From Gracilariopsis chorda (Eukaryota > Rhodophyta > Florideophyceae > Gracilariales > Gracilariaceae), in contig NBIV01000259.1 in the NCBI GenBank assembly GCA_003194525.1, positions 52,371 through 116,370 on the forward strand: 64,000 bases of DNA, read 5' to 3'. The notes beneath the pieces were generated by a model. The model was not told the DNA's origin. It saw only the letters and a program-made list of their open reading frames with translations, and ran no database searches. The first letter of the stretch is position 1. Each line of letters begins with the position of its first letter. Both the position numbers and the translations under genes were made by a program. This document shows, one piece after another, positions 41,695 to 63,561 of this stretch.

Positions 41695-42518
41695 TGTGGT
41701 GCAATGCCCCAAAGGGGAAAAACACCGGAAGACGTTCGGGATCTTCCTCTCACGAGGTGAACCCAGTTGGGTAGAGCCCTCCCAGAGGTGTCACGGCGAA
41801 GCCGATTTGTAACACCAGAGACACCTGTCGCGACTCGCGCAGGGAGGTGAAGGCGAAGAATCGGTATCCGCGTGAGCGGGGTGTGATCCTCAGTAGAGGT
41901 ACGTTTCCACGTAAGTGAGGGTGTGTGAGCGGATGCGCACACAAGGGCCGCGGATAGCGGGAGGTGCTACCCTAAAAAGGGGAAAAAGGAATGGCGAAGA
42001 GGAGGACGAGAGAACGAAGTGAGTTGCGAGAGCGACGGGGACGAACGGCGATGCCGGTAAAAATATCCCTATACAGGGCGAAACACCAATGCAATTGGAA
42101 TAATATGACTCCCAGTGATGGGTCCCTTTAGATGTGCAAGGGGGTTAGATGTCCCGTGGTTTACGGCGTTTCCTTCCAAGGAGGAGTAGAGTACGCGCGC
42201 AAGCGGCAACAACTAGAGCCAATTCCCCGGTTGGGGTCCCTTGTTGGGGAAGGTTTACTGGTGCGACGGCAGTGCGCCGTCGCACTAAGTACTAGCTTCC
42301 CAGAAATGGGTGTGAAAATAATAAATAATATTAACTAAAATACTCCACATTTCGTGGCAACATCCACTACTGTGGCCAACCGCCAATTGACCGAAAACCG
42401 TGTCCCACGTGTCCATACCCACCATTGTGGGGCGTAGTTCATATACACACTACACAACCGATAATATCGGGAAAGCGTTCAAGTGCCCAGAATCCCTCCC
42501 TGAGGGCGTTGCACTTCA
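41695..42518 (-). repeat. LTR 1 (824 bp)
   Basis: Plus-strand ends are TGTGGTGCAA and TTGCACTTCA, i.e. TG...CA with a short imperfect terminal inverted repeat. Boundaries come from where the three copies diverge. It has more differences from LTR 2 and LTR 3 than those have from each other. Confidence 0.9.
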
Positions 42519-42520
42519 TA

Positions 42521-42532
42521 TCCCCCCCCTAA
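42521..42532 (-). promoter_or_regulatory. polypurine tract of unit 1
   Basis: On the minus strand a purine run with eight consecutive G lies 2 nt before the 3' LTR start (TGAAGTGC). This is the expected plus-strand DNA primer and fixes the element's orientation. Confidence 0.75.
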
Positions 42533-42574
42533 GACGGGAAAACGACCGCGGACACGGAGGATTCCCAGACGAAA

Positions 42575-44379
42575 ATGGGCGATAAAAGCGCGTGCTCTGT
42601 CTCCGGTTCTCCGGTAAATCCCTCTGCATCAGAGTCACCAAGCGCACAAACGACAACAACAGCCACCCTCGACAAGGGAGAAATGAACGACGACAACAAC
42701 ATCAACAACCACAGCCAACCTCCGAGACTTCTCGGGCGATACACCACCGGTTTCCGGTCAGTTCCCCTGCCTCAGGGCGATCGAAATCCGGTACAACCCG
42801 GGAATATGGCTGCTGCAGCCGACCATCCCTTCGCACTACCACCTTCGGTGGTGTCCTCCGGAACCACTCCGGTGTCCAGCTGGCCAACCTACAACACCCT
42901 GGTGGGGCTCAACCCGATGAATCGGAATCACGCGTCGCGCCTGCGCCTTGCCCCGTGGTTTCACCCGGTCGCTGTCCTCAATGAGGGATTGGTCACCGCT
43001 TATGCGGATGGCTCAGACACCCTTCCGGGGGATCTGCCCAGAGCAGTCACCACATCGTGGGATTGGCGTCACCGGATTGCGATTCCGCGTCACCACCTCC
43101 GAAGAAATTCGGGCGAGACCGTCGCTGCGGCACAGACCGCGTTGACGCGCATGGCGTATCAACGGCAGAGCCGGGCTCCATTCGATGTACCGGTCCCACC
43201 GGAGTTTGGCTTCGACGTTAGCTACTTCCGCACTCGCGGGGAGGTTGGGTACGGCGAGAACCTGTTCCGCCTCGAGAACCTCGCTTGGAGGAATTTCCCC
43301 GCAGCGCGGCAAGAAGCCCTTTGCTGGGAGCGACCGATTATTCGGGCGGAGTTCAGGTACCTTCCCCGGCAATACCGGTCCAACTTTCTCCAAAACTTCA
43401 TCCGCTACGAGCGGCGTTGGCGATCCCGATTCGGGTATTTTATCCCGTATCAGAACGTGGAGATAGAGCCGATTGCGCCGCCTCACCGACTAGGTCGGTA
43501 TGTAGCACTCCCCGAGTGGTGGCGCTTCCATGAAGCCTGCCGGGGGTGCTACATAGAACTCCCGCCGGTACTTACGTACCTCGGTTCGCTGCTCACGCAG
43601 GATCCCCGGTCGGGGTTGTGGTCAGTAGTGGTTACGGAGTGGGCGGCCCGCACTGCGGCTTATATCCTCAACGAGGCGTACGACCAGTATCGTCTCTGGT
43701 TCCTTCAACCGCGTGTGCGGGCAGCGATCCGAAACCTGGATCTTCGCATCCCCCTTGGGGGCCAGGGCAACAATGAAGAGGTCCTCCAATTACTTTGGTA
43801 CATCGACAGCGTTAGCTGGAGTGAGGTCCCGCTGGAGCAAAGCGGTCGTCTGGATGGCGGCAGCGGTAACACCGGTTGTCCGGGACTCGGTAGAAACACC
43901 GCCCTTGCGGGGGATTTTATCTACTTCGACCCCTGGTAGTTCCGGGAAATTTCCTCCGAGGAGGCGCGCGAGCTTCGCGATACGCCCCAGCATGTGCCGG
44001 AAGACCACCCGGTGGGGTACGTCGATTCTGACGACTACTACCGCGCATACGGCGGGATGACCCAATGGTCGATAACGAACCGGAAGAACCCGGGGAGATG
44101 GACGTAGAGGAAACCGGCGCTAGCGCGGAAGCTTTCCCAGAGGGGGTATCTCCGGCCGAGCCGGCTGCTGACCCTTCGGCGGCAAGTGCCGGACCTTCTA
44201 TCCCCAGCGGGGTGACGGCGAATGAAAACGAGATCATCGCACGTTTTCTCCGGGGTGCCGGTCTGAGCGCTGCCGAGGTATCGGGGGATGTCACCACCAT
44301 GGCGGACGCGTTGGCCTACCGCCTCGCTGGTGGTTACGCCCCGGACGATGGGGGACTTGGGCTCCGCCTTCGGGGTTGA
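42575..44379 (+). pseudogene. plus-strand accessory ORF of unit 1, function unknown
   Basis: Opposite in direction to gag-pol. The intact part (42575-43939, 454 codons) starts with ATG after the 3' LTR and ends at a TAG where unit 2 has GAG. The frame then continues, with one single-base loss near 44054, into an acidic tail (DVEETGASAEAFPEG) that stops at 44379; the undamaged protein would be about 600 residues. The N-terminal 90 residues are Asn/Ser/Thr-rich. The middle is dense in Trp, Tyr and Arg (YERRWRSRFGYF, LPEWWRFHEACRGCYIELPP) and looks folded. I recognise no family. Its 3' end overlaps the 3' end of the pol extension on the other strand. Confidence 0.7.
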
Positions 44380-47300
44380 GCTCACGAACCGTGAGTTTGC
44401 GGGAAGATGACCGCTCCTGCGGAATCTGCATTTCCACAATCCCTTTGGGGGTCCCGTGCGACACGGTGATTGGGTGGCAAAGCGCCTCCCTGCCAGGCGC
44501 ACGAGCGCTCTGCACCATACGTTCCGGCGATGCCGTGGTGTCCCCGGCTACTGACGGGTTGCCTGGGGCTAACTCCGGTACACCGGTATTTTGGTCAAAA
44601 TTCCCCTTTGGGGGGTGCCGGGCAGGTGCCGATAACACCCTTTTCAGGGGCTTGGCCGCTAAGTGCGGTGCACCGTCTCCAAGCGGAGGAGCAGCGTCCG
44701 GTATGACCGGTTTCGAGCGTGCGATGGCGTGCGCTTTTTCCGAGCTCCTCGGTTCTTTCCCGCAGCGTTGCGGGGGTTGGCGCAAATTATTCCCCGGAGC
44801 GGGGGCTTCGATTCCGTCAACGACGGGAGGCGTTTCCGGTGCTTGCGAGCCAGGGCTTAAAGCTTCGACTGCGGCTTGGCTTCCTTTTTCCCCAAGAGGG
44901 GTGTGGGTATTTCCCTGTGAGGCCGGCGTATCTGGGCGCCCCTTCTCCGCAAGGCGCGGGTCTGATCGACCTGATTGAACCGCTTCCGCGGGGACTTCCG
45001 CCAACGGCGGCTTCGAGGCATCGCCCTGCTGAGGGGATTGAGGGCAATCGTCACCATACTCCCTTATCGGGGATCCTTCCCTGACAGGGTTGTGCGGTAG
45101 TTGCGCTTCAACTTCCCGTGTAGCACGGTATATTTCCCGCGTTTGTGGCGATGCCTCAGGGGATGGATCGGGCGATTGCATTTCCGCTGCTGCGGTATTG
45201 GAGGGAGGCTTCTAGTTTTCCCGTGACAAACGGTGTATTTGCCGCTTTTGCGGGGCCTGCGCGTCTGGTTCCTGTTGCACAGCACTGCCCGGGAACGAGG
45301 GATTAGTGTCGCGTGACATACTCCGTGCTCCACGGTCAGTGTTCCGTATGTTACGGTGTGTTTCCCGTTGCGACGGCGATATCGTTCCTCGAAAACGAGT
45401 GTTCTCCTCCCCCTCCTTAGACGAAGCAGCGGGATAAGGGATAAAATTCCCCGCTTGGCGGGTATAAATGCGCGCCAATGGGGCGGGCGTGGTAGGGGCG
45501 GGCGCTGAGAGGCCCGAATTACCCGGCTGAGCCGGTGAATCCGACAGGGTCGGTAGGTCTGAGAGTCCACGGCTGGGGTGTGGTAGTACCGTAGGCCTAG
45601 TACTCCCGGATGATTCCGGTGTTGCAGAGTCCGTAGAAATGGGGTTGCCTGGATCCAGGACTACCTCTGACGAGGGAGGAGGGGCAAGGACAACACGATC
45701 ACGGGAAATCCGTTCGTGCGTGTCGCCCATCTCTACCACGACAGTGTCGGTGTTCACAGAGATGACCTTGAATGGTCCATCCGCCACAGGCGAGAGTTTA
45801 TGGCGCTTCTCCCGTTCCGGGTTGTAGTACTCCTTCCTGATGAAGATGTAGTTATTCGCCCGAATCGGGGACGGTTTTCCTCGCAAGCGAGCATCAAAAT
45901 CCCGCTTGTAAGCGGCTTGGGCCCGTGCCATAGACTTCCGCGCAGCGTGGACCAGCTTGGAAAGCCATTGCTTCCATTGCTGCCGGTAGATACCCACGGA
46001 TGGGAAATTGTCCAAGGTAGCTTGGGGTTCCAGCGCCATAGGCGGGGGTGTTCTAGATAGAACCAACTCGAATGGCGAAACTTCGGTAGTCCGGTGTACC
46101 TGCGTATTGTACGCGTAGGTTACCGCATCAGCGTACATGTCCCAGTTCTTTGGGTGGTCTGCGACGTAGGAACGTAACGCCGCGAGTAACGTCGGGTTAA
46201 ACCGTTCAACTTGCCCATTACACTGGGGGTGGTAGGTAGTCGTGAACAAGTTCTTGACATCCAGGATGCGACAAACATCCTGGAAGAACTTGCTCACGAA
46301 CTGTTTCCCGTTATCGGAGAGCACCTCCACAGGGGGACCGTAGACAAAAATCCAGTGCGTCACCAGAGCCTGGGCCACCGTGAGAGCGGTTATCCTCCGA
46401 AGAGGGACAGTCCGTACCAGCTTAGAAAAGCGGTCGGTAATGACAAGTAGAAACTTGTTTCCACGTTTCGTGGTGAGTAGTGGTCCGAGAATATCGATCG
46501 CGATAAACTCGAGCGGCCCCCTTGCGGGGAATAGTTTCATCTTCTTCGCATTTTTGCGGAGCTTGACGCGATTCTTCGCGCATTCGCTACAGAACCGCAC
46601 AGTTGCGTAGCAATCCACCGCCATGGCGGGCCAATAGAAATCCCTTCGCAGGGTTAGGTAGAGTTTCCTCCCACCTGGGTGACCTCCAATGGGGGCGTAG
46701 TTTGATAGATGTAACACCCGCGATTGCAGGGAATGTGGTACCACAATCTGTGGGCGGGCTTCGACCTTCTTTACGAGGTAGCCTTTGTCGTTTACCCCGA
46801 AAGGGAGATCTTCACCACCGTTAAGACGGGCACGAATCCTCGTACAGAATCGGTCGCCGAATTGTTCTCGGATCATTTCTTCCGGTGATACCGGTACAAA
46901 GTTTCCCGGTAACGGGTTCTCAGATTTATCTCGCGATGCGAGTAGTTCGTCAAAATCAGCATCCTCGTCCCAGGTTTCTGGCCTAGCCTCGACGGCATGT
47001 TCCGGATCACCCGGGTCTATAGCCATGAAGCATGGGACTTCATCATCCTCCGTTGGGAGTGCTTCCCCACTTGTGGGTAACCGCGATAAAGCGTCGGCCT
47101 GGGTGTTCTGCGCGCCCTTTTTATAAATGACTTGAAAGTCATATTCCGCGAGGCGGAGTCTCCAGCGCATGAGGCGTCCCGACGGGTCGGAGATATTCAT
47201 CAACCACCTCAATGAGGAATGATCCGTGTACACGGTGAAGTGAATTCCCATAAGGTAGGGGCGCAGAGTGGTCATCGCCCATACGACGGCGAGGCACTCT

Positions 47301-49595
47301 TTCTCCGATACGGAGTAGTTCCGCTCATGAACATTGAGCGAACGTGACCAATAACCAATTGGATGCCGTTCCCCCTCGGGGGTGGTTTGAAAAAGAGCAC
47401 ACCCGACTTGGTAGTCGCTCGAGTCCGTATCTACGGAGTATGGCAACCCAAGTTTTGGGAGATGTAGGATTGGTGCTGATGTGACAGCCTCCTTTAAGGA
47501 GTTAAAAGCTTCCGATTGCTCGGGCGTAAATGTTCCCAGTTTTGGGGGGTTCCCCTTTCGCAACAACGCGTTCAGGGGCGCTGCAGTATCCGAAAAGTTC
47601 GGGATAAACCGTCGATAGACGTTGACCAGTCCCAGAAAGGAGCGCAGTTCCGTTTGAGTACGGGGTTCTTTCGCCTCAACGAGGGATTTGACTCGAGCTT
47701 TCTCGATCGCTAACCGTCCAGGACGGATAATGTGACCCAGATACTTCACAGTATCTGTGAAAAACTCGCATTTCCTCAACTTGAGGGTAATTCCCGCATC
47801 GCGGAGTACGGTCAGCACGTCTCGGACGTGAGTGAGATGGTCGTCCAACGAGTTGGAGAAGATGATAATATCATCAAGGTAGACCAGACAACTCCGCCAC
47901 TTAAAGCGGTTGAGTAGAATATCTACTGCACGCTGAAAGGTGGCGGGGGCGTTGGTTAACCCGAATGGCATCCGCTTGAAGCGGTACGTTCCTGCGTGGC
48001 AGGTGAATGCGGTTTTGTCGCGATCCTCCTGTCTGACAGGTACTTGCCAGTATCCCCAATTGGCATCAAGGGCCGTGAACACGGTGGTGTCTCCAAGGGA
48101 GTCAATGCACTCGCCCATACGAGGGATAGGGTACGTGTCCCTAACGGTCACGGCATTGAGCCGGCGGTAGTCGACACAGAACCTCCAGGTTCCGTCGGCC
48201 TTTAAAGCCAGTACAACTGGGGATGCCCAGGGTGATTGAGCGGGCTCAATCAAACCTGCGCGGAGCATCTTGTCCACTTGGGACTGCTCCTCCTCCCGAG
48301 CTTTCGCACCTACCCTGTAAGGGGGTTGTGCGACCGGTCGCGCACCGGGGATTAAATCGATCCGGTGTTCCGTTGCGTTAATCTCGCCAAGCGAGCCATC
48401 CCACATTGTGGTGAATTCCCGTAACATAGTACGGAGTTTGTCGCGGTGCGACTCTGGCACGTGGCTGAAGTCCAGCGCTTCAAGTGCTTTTTCCGGATCA
48501 ATCCGGTCGTTGCTCGATGGAGCATTGTCCTGTGGAACAGGTGTGGTTCGCAATTCCGAGTTACTCGGTATGTTCGACGCTGAAGTAGCGGTTTCCTCCC
48601 CCTCCTTAGACTTGACGTCTTCGGACGGCCGGGCGAACTCCTCAGAAGACGTGGTAACTCCGAGTACATCGGCGGCTGTCATCTTTGTTGGCAGCATTCC
48701 CATAGGATGGGGGGTTACACTCCCAATTACTTGGTGTTTTACCAGATACTGGGGGTGTTTGCCAAGTTTGGCAACCAATATCCGGAAAGGAACATCCGGG
48801 GAAATGGAGACAATTCCATTAGCCAGCGCCAGCTGGGATTTCTCGTACAACGAGGCGAGGGGTTGTATAACCCGAAGACCGTGTTGGCGGGAATTTACCT
48901 GCACCCAGACTTGGGACTCAGCCGGTATAGGAACCGAGGCAGCGACGCGGAGCTTGGTGGAATCGCGGGACGCGGGCGGTGGTTCCTGCGCAGCAGGGAG
49001 CGGAACTTGTTTCCGAGAGGACCGCTTTAGCGGGCGGCGAACAATCGGAACCGACGATCCGTCGTCAAGTTCTACACGCCTGAGGCGGGGCGTAATTGCG
49101 TCGACAAATCTGTCGCAGTAATCACATCCCAGTATCACTGGTGCTGCCAATGAACGGCAAACGATGAAGTCCAACTTCACCACGGAGGTACCAAGTCTCA
49201 CGACGAGGTCCACTGTGCCCACCGTTTGTAACGGATTGTTGTTCACATCCGAAATGTCGGGGACTGCGTCAGAGCGGATACGAGACCGCACAAGCGGGGG
49301 TAACAATGATTCCACAACAAAGTTGGGGCTGCACCTGTATCCAGGACGGTGAGAAACCTCACCATAAACTGGGGATCAAGGCCAAGGTCGCATACACCTT
49401 ATAATTGCGCTTGGCCAAGACCAAGACTCTACCGGGAATCCGGGGATTTTTACTCTGTATCCACGGGCGACGCAACACACCGAGGTGCGCAGAGTCTGCG
49501 TCAGCGGTGTCTTTCCTCGAGAGGACTTTCACCGGGGAGCGAGGCGAGGACGCCTTGGGCGCCAACAGCCTCGTTCTTGAGGACGCCTCTCCCAA
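44291..49595 (-). pseudogene. pol: pol polyprotein of unit 1 (PR, RT, RNase H, IN plus long tail)
   Basis: The protease region around 49330 is out of frame because single bases are missing compared with unit 2, so the DTGA motif is not in the main frame. From 49315 a frame of 1367 codons has RT (YLDDIIIFS), RNase H (DTDSSDYQVG, the Glu in CLAVVWAM, TDHSS), the integrase zinc finger, the integrase Asp-Asp-Glu (FIAIDILGP, SDNGKQFV, and the Glu of QVERFN), a GPF-type module (DGPFKVI) and a Pro/Ser-rich tail. A TAG at 45212 (GAG in unit 2) cuts the tail; beyond it the same style continues for nearly 300 codons to 44291. There is no chromodomain. The start of pol has no ATG, which fits expression by recoding from gag. 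Confidence 0.93.
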
Positions 49596-49611
49596 AGGGG
49601 AGACGCCCTCA
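49579..49611 (-). promoter_or_regulatory. gag stop codon with strong stem-loop (candidate recoding site)
   Basis: The gag TGA (49611-49609) opens directly into a hairpin of about 13 pairs (minus-strand arm GAGGGCGTCTCCC with its partner ending at 49579, small CTTT loop). Pol lies in the +1 frame and is open across the stop. Unit 2 keeps the stop and the stem ends but has one mismatch inside. Confidence 0.5.
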
Positions 49612-51787
49612 GTTAGTTTTCCGCCTTCGGCGGTGGGTTGGTTTCCTCGACAAAGAGTGCTTCATCCCGTTGACGGGGGTTTCTATCCGCATAAGCGGGG
49701 GTTGCAACGGATGGTTGCGTGATCTCCCGAATCGGGGTGTATGAAGCTTGCCGCGCACGCGGGGTCTGTGGTAGGGCGTGGGAAAAGTCCGTTTTAGCAC
49801 GGAGGTAGGAAGCCGTCGGACGGAACGTTTCTCCTCTGTAGTGAGGGCCTCATAGTTTGCCACTACCTTGGCCATATCCTTCAGTGAACAAATACACTGA
49901 GGTGAGGTATGGCCATGGGCGTAGCACAGGTGGCAAATGAGAGCCAACACCGCGACACGCGGATTATTATTCCTAGTATCGGAGAAGCGAACCGCAGGGC
50001 GGGTGTCAGTCCATCCAGGCCGTTGATAACGGGATTGACCGTTTGAAAACGGGAGTCGTTGGGGTTGAACCCGACTGTTACCACCGTATAGAACGGGATC
50101 TTCTGTTCCCGTATCATGGGTCATCTCCGTCGTTGACGGTAAATCACTGGTGGGTATCGACACACCATCCTCCTGCACTAAATGCACGGTATCAAATCCC
50201 TGTCCAGGGTTCCCATCCGCGGTGAGCGGGAGTGAGGAAGCTTCGCTTTCCAGCAACAACGCCTTGGCGGATTTAGACCGATTGTTCGGAGTTCTTGCAC
50301 GAAGTGCATCCCCTTCCGCTCGAGCGTGTTGGACCAGCTCGAGGTAGGTGATCCTCCGCTTGTCCTCCCGATAACGGGTAACTAAACTCCGGATTGCCGG
50401 GTCAAGACCATCGATGAACATGGTACTGCGCTCCCCAGCGGGGTATACGTTACCACATCTGTGGAAAGCCTTGTTAAGGCGCACCGAGTAATCGGTCTCG
50501 GTCTCTCCAGCACGCTGGCGTGTATCTCGCAAAGCGAGGATAGCCTGCTGAATAGCGGTGTTTGTGGCGTAGGAGCGCAGTAAGATACTGCACAGCCTCC
50601 GGCCAGCAAGTAACTCCTCCCTCGGAGGCACGAGAAGATCCTCTGACAGAGTTGTATTGGTCCTCCGCCACTCCCCGTAAGAAATACGGTAAAGCCAAAT
50701 AGGCTTGTCCCTCATTCATACCGAGGATATCGGCCTCCGCTACAAAGCGGGATAGGAAATCCAGTACTAGGACTGGGTCCTCTCCAGTAAAATACTGGTT
50801 GCGGAGCGAGAGCTGCATTCGCTTAATGCATTCTCGCACCTTCCCCGTACCACGGGGCGTACGTCCAAGTGACGAATCTTCGAGCCGGTAGTACCGGTAT
50901 GATAAAAGCTTCCGGTAATCCGGGTTTGTCGGTTTCAATTCCCGAAGACCGGGGTGTCTTCTCCCCTTCTGGCGGGTTCGGACCACACCTTCAGTGGCCG
51001 ATGACCGCTTCGAGCGGGAGGAGTAGCCTCGCTTCTCGTCCTCCGAGTCGGAGTCCGAGGAGCTCGAGCTAACCGAATGGTTTCGGGATGAGTCCGACGA
51101 TGTCGAAGAATCGGAGTCCGAATATTTTCGGTGGTGTTTCCGTCGATGACGGCGTTTCTTCTTCCCAGCAAGCTGGTCGTTGTGCGATGCCTCGTTTACC
51201 GGATCATCCGGGGATGGTTTGTCCATGAGGACGAACTGCTCCAGCGTCTCCAGGCGGGCACCAATCCGATCAAATCGGGCTTCAACTCCTTCGATGAAGG
51301 TGGCGGGTTGTCCCAAACTCTCCAACACGGAGTTGACGTCAGACCGTAAAATACGGAGTTCCTCGGCGACCTCCTTTACGGGGGTTGCCAAGACCACCTC
51401 TTGGAGGGATTTTAGTTCCCCTACAAGGGTGTCATGGGCGGTCCACAGAGCGCGGACCTGGGATTCCAGGGAAGTCCCCTGGGGTGTGTTATCGCCCGTT
51501 CCACGGGGGCTTGAAGCCGCGACAGCGGGAGCAGGCCGGGGTGCCTGGGGCACTGCGGCAACAGCCGGAGTCGATGCTGCATTCCCCTGCGGGGGTGATA
51601 ACGAGGGCAAAAGGAAGTTCCGGGGTTCCCGGTCGGGGGTATCATTCCGCGATGAAGCGGCGCCAGCACGGCTGGAACTTGTCCGTATAGGGATACGGGG
51701 TACGAACCGAACTTCGGAAGTGTCCGCGTTGTCGCGGGAGCGACTACGCGTAACCACTGGCTCCGCATCGGAGGGATTTCTCGACAT
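49609..51787 (-). pseudogene. gag: gag of unit 1, one frameshift
   Basis: ATG at 51787. The N-terminal part is Pro/Ala/Ser-rich, then a coiled-coil-like segment (LESQVRALWTAHDTLVGELK onward), a basic Lys/Arg/His patch and a long Ser/Asp run, then a capsid-like domain (YRKLLSYRYYRLEDSS, VLDFLSRFVAEADILGM). An extra T near 50581, absent in unit 2, shifts the frame; the other frame continues with the rest of the capsid-like region (DTRQRAGETETDYSVRLNKAF) and one zinc knuckle CHLCYAHGHTSPQC (CX2CX4HX4C). It ends in a basic tail at the TGA 49609. The product would be the virus-like-particle structural protein. Confidence 0.88.
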
Positions 51788-51871
51788 GAGAAAATACCGT
51801 TACGACGGGAAACGATCACGGAACTTCCGGTAAATAAAAACAAACCTCGTAAGAGGGAAAACAAAAACCGA

Positions 51872-51889
51872 TTCTAGGTCGGGAGACCA
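51872..51889 (-). promoter_or_regulatory. candidate primer-binding site, unit 1
   Basis: Three nt after the 5' LTR end, the minus strand reads TGGTCTCCCGACCTAG, starting with the TGG expected to pair with a tRNA CCA end. I could not assign the tRNA. An identical site occurs in unit 2. Confidence 0.5.
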
Positions 51890-51892
51890 CTT

Positions 51893-52717
51893 TGTGGTGC
51901 AATGCCCCAAAGGGGAAAAACACCGAAAGACGTTCGGGATCTTCCTCTCACGAGGTGAACCCAGTTGGGTAGAGCCCTCCCAGAGGTGTCACGGCGAAGC
52001 CGGTTTGTAAGACCAGGGACACCTGTCGCGACTCGCGCAGGGAGGTGAAGGCGAAGAATCGGTATCCGCGTGAGCGGGGTGTGATCCTCAGTAGAGGTAT
52101 GTTTCCACGTAAGTGGGGGTGTGTGAGCGGATGCGCACACGAGGGCCGCGGATAGCGGGAGGTGCTACCCTAAAAAGGGGAAAAAGGAAGGGCGAAGAGG
52201 AGGAAGAGAGGACGAAGTGAGTCGCGAGAGCGACGGGACAGATACGGCGATGCCGGTAACAATATCCCTATACAGGGCGAAACACCAATGCAATTGGAAC
52301 AATTATACTCCCAGTGATGGGTCCCTTTAGATGTGCAAGGGGGTTAGATGTCCCGTGGTTTACGGCGTTTCCCTCCAAGGAGGAGTAGAGTACGCGCGCA
52401 AGCGGCAACAACTAGAGCCAATTCCCCAGGTTGGGTCCCTTGTTGGGGAAGGTTTACTGGTGCGACGGCAGTGCGCCGTCGCACTAAGTACTAGCTTCCC
52501 AGAAATGGGTGTGAAAATAATAAATAATATTAACTAAAATACTCCACATTTCGTGGCAACATCCACTACTGTGGCCAACCGCCAATTGACCCAAAACCGT
52601 GTCCCACGTGTCCATATCCACCATAGTGGGGCGTAGTTCATATACACACTACACAACCGATAATATCGGGAAAGCGTTCAAGTACCCAGAATCCCTCCCT
52701 GAGGGCGTTGCACTTCA
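51893..52717 (-). repeat. LTR 2 (825 bp), shared by both units
   Basis: It is the 5' LTR of unit 1 and the 3' LTR of unit 2. It is nearly identical to LTR 3, with the same TG...CA ends. No separate target-site duplication separates the units. Confidence 0.93.
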
Positions 52718-52719
52718 TA

Positions 52720-52730
52720 TCCCCCCCTAA
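52720..52730 (-). promoter_or_regulatory. polypurine tract of unit 2
   Basis: On the minus strand a purine run with seven consecutive G lies 2 nt before the 3' LTR; it matches the unit 1 tract with one G fewer. Confidence 0.75.
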
Positions 52731-52772
52731 GACGGGAAAACGACCGCGGACGCGGAGGATTCCCAGACGAAA

Positions 52773-54611
52773 ATGGGTGATAAAAGCGCGTGCTCTGTCT
52801 CCGGTTCTCCGGTAAATCCCTCTGCACCAGAGTCATCAAGCGACACAAACGACAACAACAGCCACCCTCCAAAAGGGAAAAATGAACGACGACAACAACA
52901 TCAACAACCACAGCCAACCTCCGAGACTTCTCGGGCGATACACCACCGGTTTCCGGTCAGTTCCCCTGCCTCAGGGCGATCGAAATCCGGTACAACCGGG
53001 GAATATGGCTGCTGCAGCCGACCATCCCTTCGCACTACCACCTTCGGTGGTGTCCTCCGGAACCACTCCGGTGTCCAACTGGCCAACCTACAACACCCTG
53101 GTGGGGCTCAACCGATGAATCGGAATCACGCGTCGCGCCTGCGCCTTGCCCCGTGGTTTCACCCGGTCGCTGTCCTCAATGAGGGATTGGTCACCGCTTA
53201 TGCGGATGGCTCAGACACCCTTCCGGGGATCTGCCCAGAGCAGTCACCACATCGTGGGATTGGCGTCACCGGATTGCGATTCCGCGTCACCACCTCCGAA
53301 GAAATTCGGGCGAGACCGTCGCTGCGGCGCAGACCGCGTTGACGCGCATGGCGTACCAACGGCAGAGCCGGGCTCCATTCGATGTACCGGTCCCACCGGA
53401 GTTTGGCTTCGACGTTAGCTACTTCCGCACTCGCGGGGAGATTGGGTACGGCGAGAACCTGTTCCGCCTCGAGACCCTCGCTTGGAGGAATTTCCCCGCA
53501 GCGCGGCAAGAAGCCCTTTGCTGGGAGCGACCGATTATTCGGGCGGAGTTCAGGTACCTTCCCCGGCAATACCGGTCCAACTTTCTCCAAAACTTCATCC
53601 GCTACGAGCGGCGTTGGCGATCCCGATTCGGGTATTTTATCCCGTATCAGAACGTGGAGATAGAGCGGATTGCGCCGCCTCACCGACTAGGTCGGTATGT
53701 AGCACTCCCCGAGTGGTGGCGCTTCCATGAAGCCTGCCGGGGGTGCTACATAGAACTCCCGCCGGTACTTACGTACCTCGGTTCGCTGCTCATGCAGGAT
53801 CCCCGGTCGGGGTTGTGGTCCGTAGTGGTTACGGAGTGGGCGGCCCGCACTGCGGCTTATATCCTCAACGAGGCGTACGACCAGTATCGTCTCTGGTTCC
53901 TTCAACCGCGTGTGCGGGCAGCGATCCGAAACCTGGATCTTCGCATCCCCCTTGGGGGCCAGGCCAACAATGAAGAGGTCCTCCAATTACTTGGGTACAT
54001 CGACAGCGTTAGCTGGAGTGAGGTCCCGCTGGAGCAAAGCGGTCGTCTGGATGGCGGTAGCGGTAACACCGGTGGTCCGGGACTCGGTAGAAACACGCCC
54101 TTGCGGGGGATTTTATCTACTTCGACCCCTGGGAGTTCCGGGAAATTTCCTCCGAGGAGGCGCGCGAGCTTCGCGATACGCCCCGGCATGTGCCGGAAGA
54201 CCACCCGGTGGGTACGTCGATTCTGACGACTACTACCGCGCATACGGCGGGGATGACCCAATGGTCGATAACGAACCGGAAGAACCCGGGGAGATGGACG
54301 TAGAGGAAACCGGCGCTAGCGCGGAAGCTTTCCCAGAGGGGGTATCTCCGGCCGAGCCGGCTGCTGACCCTTCGGCGGCAAGTGCCGGACCTTCTATCCC
54401 CAGCGGGGTGACGGCGAATGAAAACGAAATCATCGCACGTTTCCTCCGGGGTGCCGGTCTTAGCGCTGCCGAGGTATCGGGGGATGTCACCACCATGGCG
54501 GACGCGTTGGCCTACCGCCTTGCTGGGGTTACGCCCCGGACGATGGGGGTGAGTGAAACCTCTAGTCCAGTTTCCTGGTTCTTCTTTCCCTGGCTATGCC
54601 AGTTAGTGTAG
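52773..54611 (+). pseudogene. plus-strand accessory ORF of unit 2, several frameshifts
   Basis: Same protein as in unit 1, starting at ATG 52773. Indels near 52848, 53110 and 53226 scatter the first third over three frames. A long frame (53339-54226) then carries the Trp/Tyr/Arg-rich core, and a last shift near 54210 leads to the acidic tail. Because the copy carries the extra 54542-55205 segment, the tail ends differently (SSPVSWFFFPWLCQLV, stop at 54611), and an AATAAA follows at about 54645. This may be the original 3' end of a separate plus-strand transcript. Confidence 0.7.
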
Positions 54612-55205
54612 TGTAGTATTGTGGGGAGCTAGCTGCTCCCTTGAATAAACTTTCCCGTTTAGAACGGTGCTTCTCGGTTGAGTTCCCCGTCTTCGACGGA
54701 CTTTGCCTTGTTATCCTTTCCTTTCGCTCTCCGCTCGCGCGGCAACGTTACCCAACTTGGGCATTAACCAGCGTGGCTGGGGCTGCAGTTCCCGTTTGAC
54801 GGTGGTATCGCAGGACCTGCGACCGTGGGAGGTGTTCAATTGGCTCCCACGTATCCCCACTGGGGTCATACCCGTACCAGCGGACGCGGTATTGTAGAAT
54901 ACCATCCTGGTCCCAGGTGTGTCCGACAAGTCGGTCTACTACGAACTCTCGTTCGTAGACCTGCCGGCCGTGCCGGGTGGTGGTTGTAATCCCTGCGGGG
55001 GCTGCCCGCTGTGCGGTATAATGTCCCTTAGCAGGGTGTTCGGCGATAACTCCGGCGTTGCCGTGCGCTGTGATAGTGGCCGCTGCTCATGCGGGAAAAT
55101 ATCCCTCAAGAGGGTGTGTGGTGCCACGGTTTTCACCGGCAAGTCATTCCCCATGGGGAGGTTCGTTTTCCGTCTTCACGGTAGGCCGGGCGAACCGCCA
55201 GTCGG
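54542..55205. other. about 650-bp segment present only in unit 2, packed with hairpins
   Basis: Both ends are GGGGG runs, and unit 1 has a single GGGGG at the junction (44349-44353), so unit 1 probably lost it by microhomology deletion. Perfect small hairpins lie nearly end to end, for example 54808-54822, 54824-54851, 54855-54865, 54888-54903, 54906-54917, 54923-54934 and 54939-54958. On the minus strand it would extend the pol tail. Confidence 0.75.
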
Positions 55206-58200
55206 CGGGGGACTTGGGTTCCGCCTTCGCGGTTGAGCTCACGAACCGCGAGTTTGCGGGAAGATGACCGCTCCTGCGGGATCGGCATTTCCACAATCCC
55301 CTGGGGGGTCCCGTGCGACACGGTGATTGGGTGGCAAACCGCCTCCCTGCCAGGCGCACGAGCGCTCTGCACCATACGTTCCGGCGATGCCGTGGTGTCC
55401 CCGGCTACTGACGGGTTGCCTGGGGCTAACTCCGGTACACCGGTATTTTGGTCAAAATTCCCCTTGGGGGGTGCCGGGCAGGTGCCGATGACACCCTTTT
55501 CAGGGGAATTGCCGCTAAGCGCGGTGCACCATCTCCATGAGGAGGAGCAGCGTCCGGTACGACCGGTTTCGAGCGTGCGATGGCGCGCGTTTTTCCGAGT
55601 TCCTCGGTTCTTCGCCGCAGCGTTGCGGGGGTTGGCGCAAATTATTCCCCGTAGCGGGGGCTTCGATTCCGTCAACGACGGGAGGCGTTTCCGGTGCTTG
55701 CGAGCCAGGGCCTAAAGCTTCGACTGCGGCTTGGCTGCCTTTTTCCCCAAGAGGGGTGTGGGTATTTCCCTGTGAGGCCGGCGTATCTGGGCGCCCCTTC
55801 TCCGCAGGGCGCGGGTCTGATCGACCTGATTGAACCGCTTCCGCGGGGACTTCCGCCAACGGCGGCTTCGAGGCATCGCCCTGCTCAGGGGATTGGGGGC
55901 AATCGTCACCATACTCCCTTATCGGGGATCCTTCCCTGACAGGGGTGTGCGGTAGTTGCGCTTCAACTTCCCGTGTAGCACGGTATGTTTTCCGCGTTTG
56001 TGGCGATGCCTCCGGGGATGGATCGGGCGATTGCATTTCCGCTGCTGCGGTATTGGAGGGAGGCTTCTCGTTTTCCCGTGACAAACGGTGTATTTGCCGC
56101 TTTTGCGGGGCCTGCGCGTCTGGTTCCTGTTGCACAGCACTGCCCGGGAACGGGGGATTAGTGTCGCGTGACATACTCCGTGCTCCACGGTCAGTGTTCC
56201 GTATGTTACGGTGTGTTTCCCGTTGCGACGGCGATATCGTTCCTCGAAAACGAGTGTTCTCCTCCCCCTCCTTAGACGGAGCGGCGGGATAAGGGATAAC
56301 ATTCCCCGCCTGGCGGGTATAGATGCGCGCCAGTGGGGCGGACGTGGTAGGGGCGGGCGCTGAGGGCCCGAATTACCCGGCTGAGCCGGTGAGTCCGACA
56401 GAGTCGGTAGGTCTGAGAGTCCCCGGCTGGGGTTTGGTAGTACCGTAGGTCTAGTACTCCCGGATGATTCCGGTGTTGCAGAGTCCGTAGAAACGGGGTT
56501 GCCTGGATCCAGGACTACCTCTGACGAGGGAGGAGGGGCAAGGACAACACGATCACGGGAAATCCGTTCGTGCGTGTCGCCCATCTCTACCACGACAGTG
56601 TCGGTGTTAACAGAGATGACCTTGAAGGGTCCATCCGCCACAGGCGAGAGTTTGTGACGCTTCTCCCGTTCCGGGTTGTAGTACTCCTTCCTGATGAAGA
56701 CGTAGTTATTTGCCCGAATCGGGGACGGTTTTCCTCGCAAGCGAGCGTCAAAATCCCGCTTGTAAGCGGCTTGGGCCCGTGCCATAGACTTCCGCGCAGC
56801 GGGGACCAGCTTGGAAAGCCATTGCTTCCATTGCTGCCGGTAGATACCCACAGATGGGAAATTGTCCAAGGTAGCTTGGGGTTCCAGCGCCACAGGCGGG
56901 GGTGTTCTAGATAGAACCAACTCGAATGGCGAAACTCCGGTAGTCCGGTGTACCTGCGTATTGTACGCGTAGGTTACCGCATCAGCGTAGAGATCCCAAT
57001 TCGTTGGGTGGTCAGCGACGTAGGAACGTAACGCCGCGAGTAACGTCCGGTTAAACCGTTCAACTTGCCCATTACACTGGGGGTGTAGGTAGTCGTGAAC
57101 AAGTTCTTGACATCCAGGATGCGACAAACATCCTGGAAGAACTTGCTCACGAACTGTTTCCCGTTATCGGAGAGCACCTCCACAGGGGGACCGTAGACAA
57201 AAATCCAGTGCGTCACCAGAGCCTGGGCCACCGTGAGAGCGGTTATCCTCCGAAGAGGGACAGTCCGTACCAGCTTAGAAAAGCGGTCGGTAATGACAAG
57301 TAGAAACTTGTTTCCACGTTTCGTGGTGAGTAGTGGTCCGAGAATATCGATCGCGATAAACTCGAGCGGCGCCCTTGCGGGGAATAGTTTCATCTTCTTC
57401 GCATTTTTGCGGAGTTTGACGCGATTCTTCGCGCATTCGCTACAAAACCGCACAGTTGCGTAGCAATCCACCGCCATTGCGGGCCAATAGAAATCCCTTC
57501 GCAGGGTTAGGTAGAGTTTCCTCCCACCTGGGTGACCTCCAATGGGGGCGTAGTGTGATAGATGTAACACCCGCGATTGCAGGGAATGTGGTACCACAAT
57601 CTGTGGGCGGGCTTCGACCTTCCTTACGAGGTAGCCTTTGTCGTTTACCCCGAAAGGGAGATCTTCACCACCGTTAAGACGGGCACGAATCCTCGTACAG
57701 AATGGGTCGCCGAATTGTTCTCGGATCATTTCTTCCGGTGATACCGGTACAAAGTTTCCCGGTAACGGGTTCTCAGATTTATCTCGCGATGCGAGTAGTT
57801 CGTCAAAATCAGCATCCTCGTCCCAGTTTTCTGGCCTAGCCTCGACGGCACATTCCGGATCATCCGGGTCTATAGCCATGAAACATGGGACTTCATCATC
57901 CTCCGTTGGGAGTGCTTCCCCACTTGTGGGTAACCGCGACAAAGCGTCGGCCTGGGTGTTCTGCGCACCCTTTTTATAAATGACTTGAAAGTCATATTCC
58001 GCGAGGCGGAGTCTCCAGCGCATGAGGCGTCCCGACGGGTCGGAGATATTCATCAACCACCTCAATGAGGAATGATCCGTGTACACGGTGAAGTGAACTC
58101 CCATAAGGTAGGGGCGCAGAGTGGTCATCGCCCATACGACGGCGAGGCACTCTTTCTCCGATACGGAGTAGTTCCGCTCATGAACATTGAGCGAACGCGA

Positions 58201-60449
58201 CCAATAACCAATTGGATGTCGTTCCCCCTCGGGGGTGGTTTGAAAAAGAGCACACCCGACTTGGTAGTCGCTCGAGTCCGTATCTACGGAGTATGGCAAC
58301 CCAAGTTTTGGGAGATGTAGGATTGGTGCTGATGTGACAGCCTCCTTCAAGGAGTTAAAAGCTTCCGATTGCTCGGGCGTAAATGTTCCCAGTTTTGGGG
58401 GGTTCCCCTTTCGCAACAACGCGTTTAGGGGCGCCGCAGTATCCGAAAAGTTCGGGATAAACCGTCGATAGACGTTGACCAGCCCCAAAAAGGAGCGCAG
58501 TTCCGTTTGAGTACGGGGTTCTTTCGCCTCAACGAGGGATTTGACTCGAGCTTTCTCGATCGCTAACCGTCCAGGACGGATAATGTGACCCAGATACTTC
58601 ACAGTATCTGTGAAAAACTCGCATTTCCTCAACTTGAGGGTAATTCCCGCATCGCGGAGTACGGTCAGCACGTCTCGGACGTGAGTGAGATGGTCGTCCA
58701 ACGAGTTGGAGAAGATGATAATATCATCAAGGTAGACCAGACAACTCCGCCACTTAAAGCGGTTGAGTAGAATATCTACTGCACGCTGAAAGGTGGCGGG
58801 GGCGTTGGTTAACCCAAATGGCATCCGCTTGAAGCGGTACGTTCCTGCGTGGCAGGTGAATGCGGTTTTGTCGCGATCCTCCTGTCTGACAGGTACTTGC
58901 CAATATCCCCAATTGGCATCAAGGGCCGTGAACACGGTGGCGTCTCCAAGGGAGTCAATGCACTCGTCCATACGAGGGATAGGGTACGTGTCCCTAACAG
59001 TCACGGCATTGAGCCGGCGGTAGTCGACACAGAACCTCCAGGTTCCGTCGGCCTTTAAAGCCAGTACAACTGGGGATGCCCAGGGTGATTGAGCGGGCTC
59101 AATCACACCTGCGCGGAGCATCTTGTCCACTTGGGACTGCTCCTCTTCCCGAGCTTTCGGACCTGCCCTGTAAGGGGGTTGTGCAACCGGTCGCGCACCG
59201 GGGATTAAATCGATCCGGTGTTCCGTTGCATTAATCTCGCCAAGCGAGCCATCCCACATTGTGGTGAATTCCCGTAACATGGTACGGAGTTTGTCGCGGT
59301 GCGACTCTGGCACGTGGCTGAAGTCCAGCGCTTCAAGTGCTTTTTCCGGATCAATCCGGTCGTTGCTCGATGGAGCATTGTCCTGTGGAACAGGTGTGGT
59401 TCGCAATTCCGAGTTACTCGGTATGTTCGACGCTGAAGTAGCGGTTTCCTCCCCCTCCTTAGACTTGACGTCTTCGGACGGCGGGGCGAACTCCTCAGAA
59501 GAGGTGGTAACTCCGAGTACATCGGCGGCTGTCATCTTTGTTGGCAGCATTCCCATAGGATGGGGGTTACACTCCCAATTACTTGGTGTTTTACCAGATA
59601 CTGGGGGTGTTTGCCAAGGTTGGCAACCAATATCCGGAAAGGAACATCCGGGGAAATGGAGACAATTCCATTAGCCAGCGCCAGCTGGGATTTCTCGTAC
59701 AACGAGGCGAGGGGTTGTATAACCCGAAGACCGTGTTGACGGGAATTTACCTGCACCCAGACTTGGGACTCAGCCGGTATAGAAACCGAGGCAGCGACGC
59801 GGAGCTTGGTGGACTCGCGGGACGCGGGCGGTGGTTCCTGCGCAGCAGGGAGCGGAACTTGTTTCCGAGAGGACCGCTTTAGCGGGCGGCGAACAATCGG
59901 AACCGACGATCCGTCGTCAAGTTCTACACGCCTGAGGCGGGGCCTGATTGCGTCGACAAATCTGTCGCAGTAATCACATCCCAGTATGACTGGTGCTGCC
60001 AATGAACGGCAAACGATGAAGTCCAACTTCACCACAGAGGTACCAAGTCTCACGACGAGGTCCACTGTGCCCACCGTTTGTAACGGATTGTTGTTCGCAT
60101 CCGAAATGTCGGGGACCGCGTCAGAGCGGATACGAGACCGCACAAGCGGGGGTAACAATGATTCCACAACAAAGTTGGGGCCTGCACCTGTATCCAGGAC
60201 GGTGAGAAACCTCACCATAAACTGGGGATCAAGGCCAAGGTCGGCATAGACCTTATAATTGCGCTTGGCCAAGACCAAGACTCTACCGGGAATCCGGGGA
60301 TTTTTACTCCGTATCCACGGGCGACGCAACACACCGAGGTGCGCAGAGTCCGCGTCAGCGGTGTCTTTCCTCGAGAGGACTTTCACCGGGGAGCGAGGCG
60401 AGGACGCCTCGGGCGCCAACAGCCTCGTTTCTGAGGACGCCTCTCCCAA
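54939..60449 (-). pseudogene. pol: pol polyprotein of unit 2, frameshifted
   Basis: The first frame (to 59532) has the retropepsin motif LDTGAGPNFV, intact here but not in unit 1. A shift near 59565 leads to a frame (59556-56974) with RT YLDDIIIFS, RNase H and most of integrase. A single-base loss near 57085 breaks it just before the integrase Glu, which lies in the next frame (QVERFNRTLL). Another shift near 56360 moves the Pro-rich tail, which here reads past the position of the unit 1 TAG as Glu and continues, with further shifts, towards 54939. No ATG begins pol; it lies in the +1 frame relative to gag. Confidence 0.9.
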
Positions 60450-60462
60450 AGGGGAGACTCCC

Positions 60463-62633
60463 TCAGTTAGTTTTCCGCCTTCGGCGGTGGGTTGGTTTCC
60501 TCGACAACGAGTGCTTCATCCGTTGACGGGGGTTTCTATCCGCATAAGCGGGGGTTGCAACGGATGGTTGCGTGATCTCCCGAATCGGGGTGTATGAAGC
60601 TTGCCGCGCACGCGGGGTCTGTGGTAGGGCATGGGAAAAGTCCGTTTTAGCACGGAGGTAGGAAGCCGTCGGGACGGAACGTTTCTCCTCTGGAGTGAGG
60701 GCCTCATAATTTGCCACTACCTTGGCCATATCCTTCAGTGAGCAGATACACTGAGGGGAGGTATGGCCATGGGCAATAGCAAAGGTGGCAAATGAGAGCC
60801 AAAACCGCGACACGCGGATTATTATTCCGAGTATCGGAGAAGCGAACCGCAGGGCGGGTGTCAGTCCATCCAGGCCGTTGATAACGGGATTGACCGTTTG
60901 AAAACGGGAGTCGTTGGGGTTGGACCCGACTGTTACCACCGTATAGAACGGGATCTTCCGTTCCCGTATCACGGGTCATCTCCGTCGTTGACGGCAAATC
61001 ACTGGTGGGTATCGACACACCATCCCCTGCACTAAATGCACGGTATCAAATCCCTGTCCAGGGTTCCCATCCGCGTGAGCGGGAGTGAGGAAGCTTCGCT
61101 TTCCAGCAACAACGCCTTGGCGGATTTAGACCGATTGTTCGGAGTTCTTGCACGAAGTGCATCCCTTCCGCTCGAGCGTGTTGGACCAGCTCGAGATAGG
61201 TGATCCTCCGCTTGTCTCCCGATAACGGGTAACTAAACTCCGGATTGCCGGGTCAAGACCATCGATGAACATGGTACTGCGCTCCCCAGCGGGGTATACG
61301 TTACCACATCTGTGGAAAGCCTTGTTAAGGCGCACCGAGTAATCGGTCTCGGTCTCTCCAGCACGCTGGCGTGTATCTCGCAAAGCGAGGATAGCCTGCT
61401 GAATAGCGGTGTTTGTGGCGTAGGAGCGCAGAAGATACTGCACAGCCTCCGGCCAGCAAGTAACTCCTCCCTCGGAGGCACGAGAAGATCCTCTGACAGA
61501 GTTGTATTGGTCCTCCGCCACTCCCCGTAAGAAATACGGTAAAGCCAAATAGGCTTGTCCCTCATTCATACCGAGGATATCGGCCTCCGCTACAAAGCGG
61601 GATAGGAAATCCAGTACTAGGACTGGGTCCTCTCCAGTAAAATACTGGTTGCGGAGCGAGAGCTGCATTCGCTTAATGCATTCTCGCACCTTTCCCGTAC
61701 CACGGGGCGTACGTCCAAGTGACGAGTCTTCGAGCCGGTAGTACCGGTATGATAAAAGCTTCCGGTAATCCGGGTTTGTCGGTTTCAATTCCCGGAGACC
61801 GGGGTGTCTTCTCCCTTCTGGCGGGTTCGGACACACCTTCAGTGGCCGATGACCGCTTCGAGCGGGAGGAGTAGCCTCGCTTCTCGTCCTCCGAGTCGGA
61901 GTCCGAGGAGCTCGAGCTAACCGAATGGTTTCGGGATGAGTCCGACGATGTCGAAGAATCGGAGTCCGAATATTTTCGGTGGTGTTTCCGTCGATGACGG
62001 CGTTTCTTCTTCCCAGCAAGCTGGTCGTTGTGCGATGCCTCGTTTACCGGATCATCCGGGGATGGTTTGTCCATGAGGACGAACTGCTCCAGCGTCTCCA
62101 GGCGGGCACCAATCCGATCAAATCGGGCTTCAACTCCTTCGATGAAGGTGGCGGGTTGTCCCAAACTCTCCAACACGGAGTTGACGTCAGACCGTAAAAT
62201 ACGGAGTTCCTCGGCGACCTCCTTTACGGGGGTTGCCAAGACACCTCTTGGAGGGATTTTAGTTCCCTACAAGGGTGTCATGGGCGGTCCACAGAGCGCG
62301 GACCTGGGATTCCAGGGAAGTCCCCTGGGGGTGTTATCGCCCGTTCCACGGGGGCTTGAAGCCGCGACAGCGGGAGCAGGCCGGGGTGCCTGGGGCACTG
62401 CGGCAACAGCCGGAGTCGATGCTGCATTCCCTGCGGGGGTGATAACGAGGGCAAAAAGGAGGTTCCGGGGTTCCCGGTCGGGGGTATCATTCCGCGATGA
62501 AGCGGCGCCAGCACGGCTGGAACTTGTCCGTATAGGGATACGGGGTACGAACCGAACTTCGGAAGTGTCCGCGTTGGTCGCGGGAGCGACTACGCGTAAC
62601 CACTGGCTCCGCATCGGAGGGATTTCTCGACAT
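60463..62633 (-). pseudogene. gag: gag of unit 2, multiple frameshifts
   Basis: ATG at 62633 as in unit 1, but an extra base near 62575 and further indels near 62430, 62330, 62240, 61820, 61215 and 60775 split it. The capsid-like region (61126-62019) keeps the frame that unit 1 lost at 50581. The zinc knuckle is broken by an indel (only AHGHTSPQC remains in one frame). It stops at TGA 60463, with the same downstream stem-loop. Confidence 0.85.
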
Positions 62634-62720
62634 GAGAAAATACCGTTACGACGGGAAACGATCACGGAACTTCCGGTGAAATGAAAACAAACCTCGTAAG
62701 AGGGAAAACAAAAACCGATT

Positions 62721-62736
62721 CTAGGTCGGGAGACCA
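62721..62736 (-). promoter_or_regulatory. candidate primer-binding site, unit 2
   Basis: The same TGGTCTCCCGACCTAG minus-strand sequence as in unit 1, 3 nt from the end of LTR 3. Confidence 0.5.
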
Positions 62737-62739
62737 CTT

Positions 62740-63561
62740 TGTGGTGCAATGCCCCAAAGGGGAAAAACACCGAAAGACGTTCGGGATCTTCCTCTCACGA
62801 GGTGAACCCAGTTGGGTAGAGCCCTCCCAGAGGTGTCACGGCGAAGCCGGTTTGTAAGACCAGGGACACCTGTCGCGACTCGCGCAGGGAGGTGAAGGCG
62901 AAGAATCGGTATCCGCGTGAGCGGGGTGTGATCCTCAGTAGAGGTATGTTTCCACGTAAGTGGGGGTGTGTGAGCGGATGCGCACACGAGGGCCGCGATA
63001 GCGGGAGGTGCTACCCTAGAAAAGGGGAAAAAGGAAGGGCGAAGAGGAGGAAGAGAGGCGAAGTGAGTCGCGAGAGCGACGAACAGATACGGCAATGCCG
63101 GTGGACAGGACTCCCTATACAGGGCGAAACACCAATGATTGGAACAATTATACTCCCAAGGATGGGCTCTCTTTAGATGTGCAAGGGGGTTAGATGTCCC
63201 GTGGTTACGGCGTTTCCCTCCAAGGAGGAGTAGAGCACGCGCGCAAGCGGCAACAACTAGAGCCAATTCCCCAGGTTGGGGTCCTTGTTGGGGAAGGTTT
63301 ACTGGTGCGACGGCAGTGCGCCGTCGCACTAAGTACTAGCTTCCCAGAAATGGGTGTGAAAATAATAAATAATATTAACTAAAATACTCCACATTTCGTG
63401 GCAACATCCACTACTGTGGCCAACCGCCAATTGACCCAAAACCGTGTCCCACGTGTCCATACCACCATTGTGGGGCGTAGTTCATATACACACTACACAA
63501 CCGATAATATCGGGAAAGCGTTCAAGTGCCCAGAATCCCTCCCTGAGGGCGTTGCACTTCA
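62740..63561 (-). repeat. LTR 3 (822 bp)
   Basis: The 5' LTR of unit 2, with the same ends as LTR 2 and a few single-base indels. Its right edge is where the sequence leaves the LTR consensus and enters an older pol fragment. Confidence 0.92.

Follow-up and report, generated by a model that had tools for sequence, protein, structure and literature searches.

We analysed a 64,000-nt stretch of the Gracilariopsis chorda genome (the window), in which positions 41695-63561 hold an array of a Ty3-like long terminal repeat (LTR) retrotransposon, ordered LTR-internal-LTR-internal-LTR and coded on the minus strand; the remainder of the window is referred to here as the host part. The element is saturated with short hairpins (31 per kb vs. 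9 in the host part, with a jump at the element border and a mean start-to-start distance of 32 nt), and this saturation, which a first reading of the stretch (the original prediction) had claimed for the LTRs, gag, pol and a plus-strand open reading frame (ORF), proved stronger than claimed. Beyond that claim, we found that the hairpins share a C...G polarity, limits on loop size and stability, a spacing of ~21 nt and oriented flanks, that they recur in several families, and that they appear to be kept by purifying selection.

Three LTRs that are direct repeats of one another frame the array (features lie on the minus strand unless stated otherwise): LTR 1 (41695-42518; TG...CA ends, 27 hairpins), LTR 2 (51893-52717), which is common to both internal copies, and LTR 3 (62740-63561). 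Within the first internal region, pol (45212-49375) has Pfam matches to RVT_1, RT_RNaseH, RT_RNaseH_2, Integrase_H2C2 and rve, whose positions give the Ty3/Gypsy order of reverse transcriptase, RNase H and integrase (H2C2 + rve); the ends agree with this type, with TG...CA at the LTR termini, a putative primer-binding site at 51877-51889 (TGG start, 3 nt past the LTR) and, adjoining the 3' LTR at 42520-42529, a plus-strand run of 8 C that is presumably the polypurine tract, both sites having been picked by eye and being what we take them to be from standard LTR-element anatomy. Two overlapping frames (50474-51799 and 49609-50715) form a region (49609-51799) that we take to be gag from its position and from a CCHC zinc knuckle (C-x2-C-x4-H-x4-C) located by pattern scan at 49888-49935; no Pfam family scored above its cut-off in this region. 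The plus-strand (antisense) ORF at 42533-43939 encodes 468 aa and has no Pfam match. The second internal region (52718-62739) is ~98% identical to the first where aligned and is hairpin-saturated too. The flank to the left of the array ends CAAAG and that to the right starts AAGTT, with no clear in-register target-site duplication. Relatives of the pol protein reach 57% identity among the matches listed; the pol frame of the window gave no Chromo match at E<=0.01, and precomputed labels assign PF00385 to many of the 120 pol relatives listed, including ones 49-57% identical. Other Ty3 families of G. chorda also lie head-to-tail, on contigs C573, C819, C883, C998 and C1001 (period ~5,679) and on C225, C509 and C755 (period ~6,350), and therefore tandem LTR arrays are not tied to hairpins; the sampled tandem-array loci L016 and L017 showed no clear hairpin excess.

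Counting perfect stems of at least 5 bp with loops of 3-8 nt, we found 168 hairpins in the first internal region vs. 50.0 ± 5.6 in dinucleotide shuffles, and 230 vs. 217 ± 14 in host positions 1-41694. Shuffles that keep the protein, the codons and the dinucleotides left the excess in place in pol (130 vs. 53.6 ± 5.4, z = 14), in gag (48 vs. 21.8 in 50474-51799, z = 8.3) and in the antisense ORF (40 vs. 21.6, z = 6.2), with all five host ORFs at chance (z of -1.2 to 0.3); the proposal that the property is imposed on codons too was thus borne out, the hairpin density lying outside the range of codon-preserving shuffles. A composition artefact is ruled out by both kinds of shuffle, and a spread repeat family is ruled out because the inner stem letters are free; a coding-frame effect was rejected as well, the pol phases (52/37/35) showing no strict phase. 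Folding energies point the same way: in 120-nt windows, the mean minimum free energy of the sense strand was -37.7 vs. -33.3 kcal/mol in shuffles, and mean folding z-scores were -1.32 (sense) and -1.05 (antisense) in the element (43 windows each) vs. -0.23 and -0.34 in the host part (41 windows each). Separately, long perfect hairpins (stem >=8, loop 3-20) exceed shuffles in host positions 20001-41694 (16 vs. 4.9).

The excess falls on one class of hairpin, with a stem of 4-6 bp, a loop of 3-5 nt and an outermost 5'-C/G-3' pair; examples are those at 42458-42470 (5-bp stem, 3-nt loop, outer 5'-CC...GG-3') and, within pol codons, at 45902-45915 (5-bp stem, 4-nt loop). Hairpins of stem 5 and loop 3 numbered 60 vs. 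4.6 expected, those of stem 4 with loops 3-5 were enriched 2.3-3.2x and those of stem 6 with loops 1-3 were enriched 5.6-7.8x, while loops of 6-8 nt on stems of 4-5 bp brought the excess down to 1.0-1.6x; the raised hairpin span was mainly 11-14 nt. Over the whole array, stems >=7 (loop 3-10) numbered 15 vs. 11.1 ± 3.2 and stems >=8 (loop 3-20) 12 vs. 5.5 ± 2.5, one in each LTR; the 10-bp hairpin listed in the original prediction at 42261-42285 is present but an outlier. Its other sites are present as far as they were compared (part of the list), that at 41746-41757 overlapping a hairpin that our scan placed at 41750-41760.

Five families (A-E) of the G. chorda genome show such hairpin series. 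In family A, C-start hairpins numbered 240 vs. 34.4, and the other outer pairs were at chance (G, 32 vs. 29.1; T, 26 vs. 22.5; A, 20 vs. 19.4). Pooled over families A-E, outer CC...GG pairs were enriched 26x in 5/3 (stem/loop) hairpins (90 vs. 3.4), 11x in 4/4 and 4/5, 7.5x in 4/3 and 6x in 5/4, and GG...CC hairpins in five classes ranged from 0.3x to 1.3x (1 vs. 2.9, 12 vs. 11.0, 12 vs. 10.2, 15 vs. 11.7 and 3 vs. 3.0). The earlier statement that all stems differ therefore stands for the inner letters but not for the ends, where the excess shares a polarity, C at the start and G at the end. The spacing CC-N7-9-GG was enriched 7.5-11.3x only when the next two pairs matched as well, and otherwise 1.25-1.35x; real pairing is therefore needed, with inner letters free. 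By the RNA model of the sense strand, the enrichment of C-start hairpins with 3-5-nt loops is 4.5-10x from -2 to -7.5 kcal/mol, 1.9x in the range -2 to -1 kcal/mol and 0.6-1.4x beyond either end, whereas large-loop or G-start hairpins of equal free energy (-2 to -7.5 kcal/mol) stood at 0.5-1.7x, and stability alone is therefore not what is selected. Interior Watson-Crick pairs numbered 2370 vs. 723. Weak 3-bp hairpins in the linkers were unenriched (C-start 53 vs. 51.7), and no loop motif was seen in the two hairpin classes examined for loop recognition. The flanks are oriented by strand (plus strand: T before the hairpin 193, A after it 77, n = 489, p = 1e-12), and all five families share the sign. 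Neighbouring C-start hairpins prefer gaps of 5-12 nt (129 vs. 81.0) and avoid gaps of 0-4 nt (11 vs. 54.6), and the distance between hairpin centres peaks at ~21 nt and rises again, less strongly, near 43 and 63; the order of the hairpins is loose.

The comparison of families rests on the G. chorda genome, with one locus each for B, D and E and two for C. The sister family B (L031, 70% nucleotide identity) is enriched 2.4-2.9x in LTR, pol, gag and the stretch downstream of pol, family C (L044, L045) 2.6-2.7x, and the 1.2-kb pieces of families D (L046) and E (L047) 3.0x and 2.5x. Density is kept while most hairpin positions turn over between families, as is expected if many sites are interchangeable. 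We also took 20 loci of 10 kb around Ty3 matches, of which seven (L019, L020, L025, L026, L031, L033 and L034) hold pieces of A or B and an eighth is L030; the 12 without DNA similarity to A, pooled, showed no polar excess (C-start 1.13x, G-start 0.94x), and in the host part C-start hairpins numbered 99 vs. 96.0. The more distant L030 (42% amino acid identity in pol) has no excess in pol (38 vs. 38.6); its positions 1000-3300 and 7100-10000 carry a weaker excess without C polarity, partly G-start (18 vs. 8.6).

We compared copies for change within and outside the stems. Between the first window copy and L008, changes amounted to 7/924 in stems, 20/371 in loops and 73/2135 outside (7/924 vs. 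93/2506 for stem vs. non-stem), and the stem/non-stem ratio was <=0.71 in 34 of 36 comparisons at 84-98% identity, the other two giving 0.86 and 0.99. Private and fixed changes were separated in a pol piece from 14 copies, including the window's two, out of 40 + 34 places listed; L014 was left out past pol-piece position 2,500, where its sequence is unrelated, and L040-L043 span ~1,860 of 3,976 positions. When a single real copy served as reference and the main copies had to be unanimous (12 copies), 36 of 112 private changes fell in stems (expected 33.4) vs. 14 of 98 fixed changes (expected 29.2; contrast p = 0.0032), and the 8 closest copies alone gave 15/50 (expected 14.9) vs. 14/111 (expected 33.1; p = 0.014). 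A majority reference over the 12 main-group copies gave 38/114 private (expected 33.4) and 6/32 shared (expected 9.4) changes in stems, with fixed changes of 13/104 vs. window copy 1 (expected 30.5) and 2/53 vs. copy 2 (expected 15.5), a contrast (p = 7.6e-5) that the real-copy reference weakens to the value above. Fixed changes at third codon positions of the pol piece ran at 6/401 in stems, 9/153 in loops and 51/772 outside. Private changes are probably mostly post-insertion; since they are free in stems and fixed changes are depleted there, mutations seem to arise at a normal rate in stems and to be purged before spread, which argues against a purely mutational origin. In the pol piece, the first window copy has, relative to the second, lost more hairpins than it gained (L006 vs. 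L013; 14 vs. 4 stems hit), as if decaying.

The original prediction had offered two causes. Selection for RNA structure stands insofar as a nucleic-acid structure is selected, as the stem conservation, the private/fixed contrast and paired-site covariation between families A and B indicate, but generic thermodynamic RNA structure is insufficient, explaining neither the polarity nor the loop limit. The second, intrastrand template switching, belongs with a wider mutational origin in which switching, or a lower mutation rate in paired bases, would leave hairpins without function; it would give varied stems in unrelated sequence, and a lower stem change rate alone would also raise stem frequency. 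However, template switching should give long stems, single-mismatch relics and compensated pairs in close copies, and it found no support: stems >=7 are barely in excess, interior mismatches are near chance (0.78-1.27x), and double Watson-Crick changes were absent from 5,290 pair cells at 93-100% identity and numbered 2 among 1,268 at 80-93%, with one further case in a comparison of close copies. Together with the private changes undepleted in stems, the depleted fixed differences and the polar outer pair, these results disfavour both switching and mutational trapping as the main cause.

We propose, tentatively and at a level we would place a little short of probable, that the hairpins are binding sites for a hypothetical hairpin-reading protein that coats the genomic RNA. 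Matching arms of arbitrary sequence serve no evident purpose in double-stranded DNA, and RNA or single-stranded cDNA is therefore the likely substrate; the strand-oriented flanks mean that one strand matters more. The hairpins would then offer many weak, interchangeable sites to a putative protein that recognises the foot of a short stem, on one strand of the element in single-stranded form (most probably its genomic RNA). One unit bound per ~21 nt would package or protect this RNA, and hairpins this weak would not stop ribosomes or reverse transcriptase. A ceiling on stability suits an RNA that needs to be translated and copied, and the ~21-nt pitch fits one bound unit per hairpin. Candidate readers would be Gag, the simplest with its CCHC knuckle, and then the protein of the conserved antisense ORF. 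Taken as a whole (weak, interchangeable polar sites, read on a single strand in ~21-nt units, for packaging or protection), this reading is plausible to us without being the probable outcome. A bolder form, which we hold with more reserve still, is that nearly the whole element genome carries a second structural code of quasi-regular, strand-oriented, interchangeable polar mini-hairpins, one per ~21-nt protein footprint, and would be stored as a hairpin-registered nucleoprotein; we know of no such genome packaging in any mobile element.

The antisense ORF that encodes the second candidate reader, 468 aa in the window copy, is mostly a 609-aa open frame in other copies, and a search of the G. 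chorda genome placed it at >=91 places at 94-100% identity; it is conserved in several families and present in A, C, D and E, all of which bear hairpins. Its relatives include P0124-P0128 and occur in the G. chorda annotation (P0124 = BWQ96_03215) and on other contigs. The protein forms a family of its own with invariant W, R and P residues, and no Pfam match was obtained in the three members scanned.

Several observations weigh against a polar, protein-read hairpin series. Non-C-outer hairpins (those without C in the outer two pairs) are no more frequent than chance, yet they may be conserved as well (3/182, p = 0.21; stems 4/436 vs. 0.0227, with C-outer stems there at 33/2294); the pooled values were 0.40 for G-start, 0.46 for A-start and 0.80 for T-start hairpins, and conservation of non-C-outer hairpins would argue against a polar reader. 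Stems are not spared by changes shared among the 8 closest copies (4/8), though these are few. In contrast to ordinary RNA helices, the stems show no enrichment of interior G.U pairs on either strand (plus-strand G.T 370 vs. 359; A.C, equivalent to G.U on the opposite strand, 277 vs. 320). At 70% identity, most A-B hairpin positions are unconserved (stem/non-stem 0.82-0.92). As to the compensatory changes for which the original prediction had proposed a test, a first A-B pair count, made without a shuffle null, gave no evident excess; against within-type shuffles there was one, of 46 double Watson-Crick changes vs. 25.6 ± 4.5 (maximum of 1,000 shuffles, 42), in a test that counts hairpins present in both sequences twice, and covariation was not significant in family C (8 vs. 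5.9 ± 2.2). The regularity varies: the best Fourier period is 19.75-20.25 for families A, C and E, 54 for B and 17 for D. Family E shows only a weak flank orientation (T 0.33, A 0.29). Other loci carry related signals: a weaker, non-polar excess in L030 at 1000-3300 (40 vs. 22.6; C 13/6.5, G 15/8.0), and, among the 12 pooled Ty3 loci, a mild C-start excess of 1.5-1.8x in L023 (38 vs. 21.0) and L032 (30 vs. 19.7) and an excess of 5/3 hairpins of mixed polarity in L018 (24 vs. 9.5). Finally, family B, of which one copy was seen, has hairpins without a detectable antisense ORF, and the AlphaFold fold of the antisense-ORF protein, at pLDDT 36, is unusable. As an observation apart, L023 (C114:88500-98499), which has no DNA similarity to A, may represent part of a further hairpin-rich family.

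Among the alternatives, escape from RNA interference (RNAi) or from sense/antisense pairing survives best, as an unlikely but serious possibility: hairpins on both strands, too short for Dicer, would hinder formation of double-stranded RNA and access by Argonaute. The element is coded on both strands, with the antisense ORF conserved in several families, and two Piwi-domain matches, near-complete and free of stops, occur in the host along with two frames that each contain two RNase III domains; moreover, perfect Watson-Crick stems fold on both strands, which would explain the non-use of G.U, and the excess stops at stems of ~6 bp. Such escape leaves unexplained why only C-outer hairpins are in excess, a polarity that it does not predict, and why the flanks are strand-oriented, and family B has its hairpins without a detectable antisense ORF. 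Independently of this, Piwi-domain fragments, several with stops, recur at ~8 kb in G. chorda (C483, C648, C777 and C944), as though a tandem repeat or mobile element carried an Argonaute-like piece.

We regard it as quite unlikely that many weak hairpin sites serve to capture a host RNA-binding factor (for export, stability, translation or localisation). A polar, stability-limited motif implies a reader, and nothing in the data makes that reader element-encoded; however, the motif is missing from the host part and from the 12 pooled Ty3 loci, and such a factor would therefore be exploited mainly by this clade. We give little credence to a role of the hairpins in single-stranded cDNA, whether in the course of reverse transcription or afterwards, instead of in RNA. 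Strict Watson-Crick pairing without G.U and the loop limit of 3-5 nt would suit DNA, and the sense-strand folding z is slightly stronger with DNA than with RNA parameters (-1.65 vs. -1.32), but this difference is small and the host part likewise gives -0.36 vs. -0.23, and cDNA is normally short-lived. A mutational origin, on the evidence of the stems given above, is hardly credible.

The case for selected structure throughout a mobile genome usually rests on folding energies. In the present element, single stems could be counted and were shown to be conserved, and five hairpin families share one host with sampled Ty3 elements that have none or little. The constraint overlaps the codons of ORFs on both strands, fixed third-position change being ~fourfold slower in pol stems than outside them, and the question of what reads distributed hairpins becomes directly testable in a red seaweed. 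We found no description of such an element in the titles and abstract openings searched, which cover few subscription journals, and no match in viral contigs scanned with six peptide patterns.

Several known systems offer comparisons. Genome-scale ordered RNA structure (GORS) shares the element-wide excess of folding below dinucleotide shuffles, but GORS is not known to be bound to a single polar class of hairpins, nor to a particular loop limit, stability window or spacing. The structures used in Ty1 and Ty3 RNA dimerisation and packaging are likewise LTR-retrotransposon RNA structures used by Gag, and in the excerpts of the literature covered, the work on Ty1 RNA structure deals with the 5'-terminal region, in contrast to the element-wide hairpin series here. 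The dispersed packaging signals of single-stranded RNA viruses are many degenerate coat-binding hairpins; both they and the present series consist of many short, variable, individually weak hairpins in coding and non-coding parts, and the series described here would plausibly be read by a coat protein too. As with such signals, we found hairpins under selection genome-wide and a shared recognition element (the outer C-G polarity and the flank orientation). Unlike them, the G. chorda series is at saturation (mean 32 nt, pitch ~21), keeps the C-G polarity of the outer pair fixed while its loops are free, shows no excess of G.U and lies in an LTR retrotransposon.

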